This document shows positions 4,213 through 45,094 of a stretch of DNA of 45,290 nt, one piece after another. The stretch spans positions 1 to 45,290 of the forward strand of contig JAFIGD010000041.1 of the NCBI GenBank assembly GCA_020831625.1, given 5' to 3'. Position numbers and translations under genes: made by a program. Position 1 is the stretch's first letter. Every line of letters begins with the position of its first letter. The stretch comes from Verrucomicrobiota bacterium. GTDB lineage: Bacteria; Verrucomicrobiota; Kiritimatiellia; SS1-B-03-39; UBA6053. Below the pieces are notes generated by a model. The model searched no databases. It was not told the origin of the DNA and worked only from the letters and a program-made list of their open reading frames with translations.

Positions 4213-4262
4213 CTTTCCGGCGTTCGGAAAACCGCGCGCTTTGTTTTCCGAAGCTCGGAAAA
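4213..4262. repeat. Two TTTTCCG-N5-CGGAAAA palindromes, 31 bp apart
   Basis: Two palindromes lie in the divergent intergenic region between rnk and the LemA-fusion gene. Copy A, at 4213-4231, has half-sites TTTCCG and CGGAAAA around GCGTT. Copy B, at 4244-4262, has TTTTCCG and CGGAAAA around AAGCT. Their centres (4222 and 4253) are 31 bp apart with a 12-bp spacer. The same motif with the same period occurs at 44632-44712. They could be operators, nucleoid-protein sites or REP-like elements. Confidence 0.75.
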
Positions 4263-43106: not shown

Positions 43107-44544
<1,438 letters not shown>

Positions 44545-44567: not shown

Positions 44568-44599
44568 AAAACCCCGCCACGCCTTGTGGCGGGGTTTTT
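44568..44599 (+). terminator. Rho-independent terminator of gdhA
   Basis: A GC-rich stem (ACCCCGCCAC and GTGGCGGGGT) closes a GCCTT loop and is followed by a TTTTT run. It lies directly after gdhA. Confidence 0.93.
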
Positions 44600-44601
44600 C
44601 A

Positions 44602-44712
44602 TTTTCCGGGACTATGAAAAACAAAGCGCCATTTTCCGATGGCCGGAAAACAAAACCTGTCGTCTTCCGACGGTCGGAAAATAAGGCATGGCGTTTTCCG
44701 ACGGTCGGAAAA
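44602..44712. repeat. Phased TTTTCCG-N5-CGGAAAA palindrome array
   Basis: Three palindromes lie at 44632-44650, 44663-44681 and 44694-44712, with centres 44641, 44672 and 44703, exactly 31 bp apart, and 12-bp spacers of unrelated sequence. A degenerate fourth (TTTTCCG then GGACTATGAAAA) lies at 44602-44620, about 30 bp before the first. The half-sites are identical except for one T-to-C in copy 2. The same motif and period occur at 4213-4262. Thirty-one bp is close to three helical turns, so a protein could contact one face of the DNA. Frames reading through it are repeat translations. Confidence 0.85.
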
Positions 44713-44746: not shown

Positions 44747-45094
44747 TTATTTCGGGAAATCCAGCGGACTCTTCCGCTCCTTTTGCGTCCGGCTTGGAAC
44801 CGTGTGCGTATAGATCATCGTCGTCCGCACATCGGAATGACGCAGAATCTCCTGACACAAGCGCACCGCCTCTGTCGCCGCCGCCTGCTGCTCCGGCGAT
44901 TGACCTTTCGACGCAAGTTTCTGCAAAAACGGCATCAAACTGTCCTCCTCCTGAGGAGGATGACGATACTTGGCGCAAAAATCCCAGTAAAACCGAAGCC
45001 ACTTCAACGCCTCCCCATGACCCTGACCTGACACGCCCATCTTCTTCAGAGCGTCAGAAAAACTCGAAAATACATCAGCGGGTGGAGCGTTCAT
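44747..45094 (-). pseudogene. Internally deleted integron-type tyrosine recombinase
   Basis: A 115-residue frame that joins the two ends of an integron-integrase-like protein (normally over 300 residues). Residues about 24-79 resemble the N-terminal core-binding domain (LRFYWDFCAKYRHPP, FLQKLASKGQSPEQQ). Residues 81-115 are the C-terminal end, with ILRHSDVRTTMIYTH, including the nucleophile Tyr95, and a terminal KSPLDF. The catalytic Arg, Lys and His-x-x-Arg between them are missing, with the junction near residue 80 (RLC/QEIL). The deletion kept the frame, so a short protein could be made but should not recombine DNA. The start ATG lies at 45092-45094. An inverted repeat and an AT-rich gene lie upstream of its start, where an attI site and cassettes would be. 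Confidence 0.72.

Follow-up and report, generated by a model that had tools for sequence, protein, structure and literature searches.

The ribonucleotide reductase (RNR) repressor NrdR binds as a tetramer to two 16-bp palindromes, the centres of which lie about three helical turns apart across a variable linker (PMC9110341, PMC12051234). The palindrome arrays reported here resemble NrdR boxes in their geometry, with centres 30–32 bp (three turns) apart, and differ from them in lacking both ACAC..GTGT-type arms and a location at nrdR promoters, as evident from 30 nrdR loci. Whereas NrdR boxes occupy few RNR promoters, the arrays amount to up to approximately 1000 pairs, follow no single gene set and extend into coding DNA. 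Sites of Lrp are usually degenerate, whereas the arms of the present arrays, for which Lrp is a weak candidate binder, are nearly invariant. The likeness to Lrp/AsnC arrays lies in the regular spacing of short palindromes, which these proteins bind as multimers of dimers (PMC2995911).

REP elements carry, by definition, a GTAG/CGTC tetranucleotide tag at one palindrome end (PMC3733652). Like REP/BIME sequences, the arrays are abundant, form small clusters and are located downstream of stop codons and between convergent genes; unlike REP/BIME sequences with a RAYT, they show neither the tag nor a correlation with RAYT, consist of symmetric units at a fixed helical spacing and originated within genes by substitution. 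Noc, SlmA and MatP sites are mainly single and biased along the chromosome. With these, the arrays have in common that short palindromes are spread over the chromosome, genes included, possibly for one putative reader protein; the arrays differ in being phased pairs without clear bias along G008, a closed genome of another genus. Similar to the DUS/USS signals of DNA uptake, the arrays occur in hundreds of copies, in family dialects and in genes as well as 3′ regions; those signals, unlike the paired units of the arrays, are not known to need a partner at a fixed distance.

The arrays in the window and their counterparts

The window, a stretch of 45,290 nucleotides, is contig C68 of genome G000 (4.89 Mb, 111 contigs) and contains two arrays, A and B (Table 1). 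Eleven sites at ≤3 mismatches were detected in it versus 3.9 expected, the maximum in 100 shuffles being 9. As claimed in the preliminary description, array B comprises three TTTTCCG-N5-CGGAAAA palindromes with successive centre distances of 31 and 31 bp, array A is a second locus with the same period, and the spacers are unrelated in sequence. All five copies described there are present, two of them with one mismatch instead of an exact match, and the start of the array B span (44602–44712) turned out to be a worn fourth copy, spaced by 30 and not 31 bp.

Table 1. Positions of the palindrome units in the window and of neighbouring features of array B
Feature	Position	Strand	Sequence and remarks
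Array A, unit 1	4213..4231		CTTTCCGGCGTTCGGAAAA, 1 mismatch
Array A, 12-bp spacer	4232..4243		spacers drift between orthologues
Array A, unit 2	4244..4262		TTTTCCGAAGCTCGGAAAA, exact; 31 bp after unit 1
Array B, degenerate unit	44602..44620		TTTTCCGGGACTATGAAAA, 2 mismatches; 30 bp upstream of the unit at 44632
Array B, unit 1	44632..44650		TTTTCCGATGGCCGGAAAA, exact
Array B, unit 2	44663..44681		TCTTCCGACGGTCGGAAAA, 1 mismatch; 31 bp after unit 1
Array B, unit 3	44694..44712		TTTTCCGACGGTCGGAAAA, exact; 31 bp after unit 2
Glutamate dehydrogenase gene	43207..44544	+	context of array B, outside the array; read by eye
Intrinsic-terminator-like stem and T run	44572..44600	+	context, between the dehydrogenase gene and array B; read by eye

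The DNA flanking array B is common to two other loci of G000, L222 and L181. Adjoining array B on the minus strand, a 115-aa frame (44747–45094) was noted, the end of which resembles an integron integrase (TIGR02249, E 3.9e-8, residues 76–112) and which appears internally deleted. Related pieces adjoin arrays at L222 (4283–4770), L181 (159–435) and L162 (3833–4443), two of them near contig ends. At the gdhA orthologue of the sister species G002, the 272 bp of contig that were inspected directly contained no array.

A scan of the whole G000 genome, which the preliminary description had proposed as the test of whether the phasing was a coincidence (no copies beyond these five, or scattered distances), produced neither of these outcomes: it yielded 116 exact TTTTCCG-N5-CGGAAAA sites and none for the reversed control pattern, with the spacing locked at 31 bp. 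Among the 30 strict pairs found 19–49 bp apart (gap of 0–30 bp left free), the distance was 31 bp in 28 and 32 bp in two, both of the latter sitting within coding frames (L160, L168). All 55 spacings in G002 were 31 bp, with mainly TCA/TGA as the loop. Counting partners with ≤5 mismatches for the strict sites of both genomes gave 184 at ±31, four at ±32 and three at ±30 bp, versus about seven at every other offset from 22 to 60 combined. The ±31 positions were bimodal, 178 holding a site with ≤4 mismatches and the remainder being random; a partner 30–32 bp away, almost always at 31, was present for 173 of the 176 strict sites. The core in both species was determined to be TTCCGA-NNN-TCGGAA, with the outer T/A pairs best kept in the spacer-facing arms. 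The approximately 78 dispersed arrays have 2–5 units each (two in most, four or five in the largest), with repeats of 15–19 bp and spacers of 12 bp.

For locus-by-locus reading, stretches (L numbers) were taken around listed sites in G000 and around G002 sites. Other odd repeats were seen to fill intergenic regions of G000 (L223, L156, L201, L202), namely GATTAA runs, ACCACGGATGAACACGGAT and CGAATGA units. Many G000 arrays are separated from the nearest contig end by no more than a few hundred bases (e.g., C29, C36, C42, C50, C77), by eye above expectation, as if they flanked repeated or variable DNA.

For relatives, a relaxed core was used (TTCC-N7-GGAA pairs at 30–32 bp), and genomes with at least two pairs were scored as array-bearing. 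Of 97 genomes sampled from the class of G000, 44 had such pairs, at 2 to 1047 per genome, and the other 53 were without arrays; genomes from the rest of the phylum gave 0 or 1 pair each, which is chance level, and reversed controls gave no match in array-bearing genomes of the class. The arms follow dialects, TTCCGA..TCGGAA here and TTCCAA..TTGGAA and others in other families, where half-sites of the form TTTTCCAA..TTGGAAAA were found and a distance of either 31 or 32 bp is the habit of each species. With the strict paired pattern, the matches listed from the GTDB collection carried the labels Kiritimatiellae, Kiritimatiellales, Lentisphaerae, Verrucomicrobia/subgroups, PVC group or none; judging from the labels of relatives, the array-bearing class is probably Kiritimatiellia of Verrucomicrobiota.

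An IMG/VR contig with Mu-like genes, as read by eye, contains three units 31 bp apart (L435, 3427–3507) in a small coding gene whose start resembles a Cro/XRE regulator. The only two pairs in an otherwise array-free family (L351 and L357 of G270) enclose a palindromic GGTCTGACC centre, because of which they look MITE-like and different from true arrays. Rfam families and plasmid relatives were tried as matches for the arrays and rejected. No description of Kiritimatiellota/Verrucomicrobia palindromes or of the literal sequences was found in the literature searched, which is weak evidence of absence, most subscription papers lying outside it.

Conservation, sites inside genes and genomic context

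Orthologous arrays of G000 and G002 were compared at five loci, including the pgk-tpiA gap, a site upstream of aspS and one after rlmN (gene names by eye). Identical bases numbered 143 of 144 in the core arms, 34 of 84 in the spacers and 12 of 36 in the loops; arms and spacing are kept while spacers and loops are almost randomised. A check for compensatory changes between half-sites, as the preliminary description had recommended, revealed no excess (7 observed versus 5.65 expected). Across G002 loci, the loop has drifted towards one triplet while the spacers are not homogenised, which suggests a shifted binding preference rather than gene conversion.

The number of units varies between the two sister species. 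In a methyltransferase gene, G002 has three units (L256) and G000 two (L168), a 30-bp difference that leaves the reading frame intact. Breaks in synteny between G000 and G002 were seen at arrays, in stretches that were all chosen around arrays. At G002 L276, a single array separates two genes, the orthologues of which in G000 each adjoin a different array (L203, L179); this layout is what inversion between arrays would yield. In G055, separate loci carry arrays of identical spacer sequence, which points to copying of whole arrays, and not every copy in such genomes therefore arose in place.

In G008, predicted coding frames contain 15 of 23 fetched pairs, with apparent ileS, carB, purL and pcrA genes among them, and an array in alaS is common to G000 and G002. 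Across the array, IleRS, AlaRS and aspartase (ileS, alaS, aspA) align without gaps to solved homologues, and in CarB the sole nearby gap falls past the array. Since the homologue alignments are ungapped there, these coding pairs arose by substitution in place and not by insertion, and insertion of a palindromic element of the Rickettsia type into these genes was rejected. An array in a gene for an FAD amine oxidase is kept between G000 and G008, i.e., across two genera, with 24 of 24 core-arm bases identical; third bases agree at 8 of 8 positions in the array arms versus 125 of 270 elsewhere, a comparison biased by the choice of pairs for array presence in both species. At the divergence of G000 and G008, this array would be expected to be lost without constraint.

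Context was analysed over all loci, with genes called by a simple script. The commonest position of an array is 0–20 bp past a stop codon, accounting for 78 of 192 3′ distances versus 17 of 169 5′ distances; convergent gaps are favoured and divergent gaps not avoided. The arrays after stop codons could instead reflect a 3′-end function. Across all loci, no gene set beside arrays common to different species was found, nor any shared regulon. Bias along the G008 chromosome was rejected, the 50 listed sites being placed near uniformly (KS p 0.10–0.32), and so was the idea that, where a genome has few arrays, they cluster at the gene of their binder.

Alternative explanations

Operators of a global Lrp/AsnC- or NrdR-type regulator, with multimers on phased palindromes controlling many genes, are an unlikely explanation of the arrays, although NrdR/Lrp systems have the same geometry (PMC12051234, PMC2995911). 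An Lrp/AsnC protein is encoded in all 44 scored array-bearing genomes, and all nine scored Lrp-free genomes are array-free (Fisher p 0.0003, uncorrected for phylogeny); however, Lrp also occurs in 25 array-free genomes and is without a match in G003 (88% complete, with some arrays, outside the scored table); arrays are absent from the neighbourhood of lrp, and the Lrp of the class has an acidic-looking recognition region. As an array binder, Lrp is a weak candidate. NrdR is probably not the reader, because it is present in nearly every genome with or without arrays; it was rejected as binder on this ground and on a scan of 30 nrdR loci, none of which had an array nearby. For either regulator, it is against the operator reading that array sites are commoner at 3′ than at 5′ ends, occur in coding sequence as well and mark no common gene set.

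It is rather improbable that the arrays are a DUS/USS-like signal spread by preferential DNA uptake or transfer, which would accumulate everywhere including coding genes. The arm dialects, which differ by family, have a known parallel in DUS dialects (PMC3630211). The presence of sites both in genes and after stop codons and their formation by substitution are likewise in line with such a signal. Known uptake signals, however, are short and asymmetric and are not known to require a partner at a fixed distance, and many array-bearing genomes show a low density of sites.

It is very unlikely that the arrays represent a mobile palindrome of the REP kind, which a transposase would propagate and which would be kept as tandem doublets. 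The preliminary description had considered such a propagating unit, and copying of arrays does occur in G055, where separate loci have arrays with identical spacers; the placement of arrays past stop codons and between convergent genes, the differing unit number of sister species and the flank of array B shared with L222 and L181 would also agree with mobility. The idea has mostly failed on the absence of a GTAG/CGTC tag or of any conserved base in both 15-bp flanks of 52 two-unit arrays, on spacers that are near random while arms are kept, on old orthologous arrays and on coding copies that are not insertions. A RAYT-associated REP was rejected because the array-bearing G054 lacks Y1_Tnp, which many array-free genomes possess.

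The units could form 8-bp stems with 3-nt loops, many of them just past stop codons, yet a function as RNA hairpins in transcripts (termination, 3′ protection) is highly improbable: sequence is kept rather than pairing, as seen from the lack of a compensatory excess, and the T/A flanks are reversed for an intrinsic terminator, with an A run and not a U run on the 3′ side. Moreover, RNA hairpins would not be expected to keep a spacing precise to a single base, essential genes and divergent gaps contain sites as well, and a terminator-like stem is already in place upstream of array B.

The CRISPR-like outline seen in the preliminary description is superficial, CRISPR arrays, which accompany cas genes, having repeats of about 21–48 bp and spacers of similar length, whereas here 15–19 bp repeats and 12-bp spacers form dispersed arrays of 2–5 units, orthologous between species and with drifting spacers.

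Probable paired binding sites for a putative protein

The arrays are probably paired binding sites on the same DNA face for a putative oligomeric, sequence-specific dsDNA-binding protein, for which a chromosome-wide role is more likely than one regulon. Each array would provide two, sometimes three to five, sites for this putative class-specific protein, one dimer of which would bind each 15–19 bp palindrome via both arms, with weak reading of the central 3 bp and none of the 12-bp spacers. Dimers 30–32 bp, or three helical turns, apart would share a face of the DNA and touch, so that binding would be cooperative and a lone site would be of little use. Selection would maintain arms and spacing locus by locus, genes included. 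The three-turn phasing, the variable linker, the invariant arms and the lack of a compensatory excess fit dimers that bind cooperatively to a single face of dsDNA. Against this reading stand the 53 of 97 sampled genomes of the class that manage without arrays. Of the interpretations offered in the preliminary description, it is the one in which selection acts on the binding of a protein to a single DNA face that is well supported, namely by the three-turn spacing, the kept arms, the near-random spacers and the coding sites built by substitution.

As no gene set is marked and sites occur in 3′ regions, divergent gaps and essential coding genes alike, the role of the putative protein would most likely be chromosome-wide, in nucleoid architecture or as a self-mark, and not in the control of one regulon. 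More tentatively, the phased pairs may constitute a class-specific, chromosome-wide code in intergenic DNA and essential genes, read by a putative dimer-of-dimers protein with an organising or marking function on the chromosome of these Verrucomicrobiota; into essential genes, this code would have been written through silent and conservative changes.

The arrays appear to be dispersed protein-binding sites, unusual in their pairing, precision, number and presence in genes. Their abundance, exact spacing and confinement to one class imply a dedicated DNA-reading protein. They amount to a natural experiment in which the exact helical phase of site pairs is held at hundreds of loci, coding sequence included, and the family dialects allow the study of how a recognition sequence changes between families. 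In this largely uncultured group, the array itself is a ready bait with which to find its protein.
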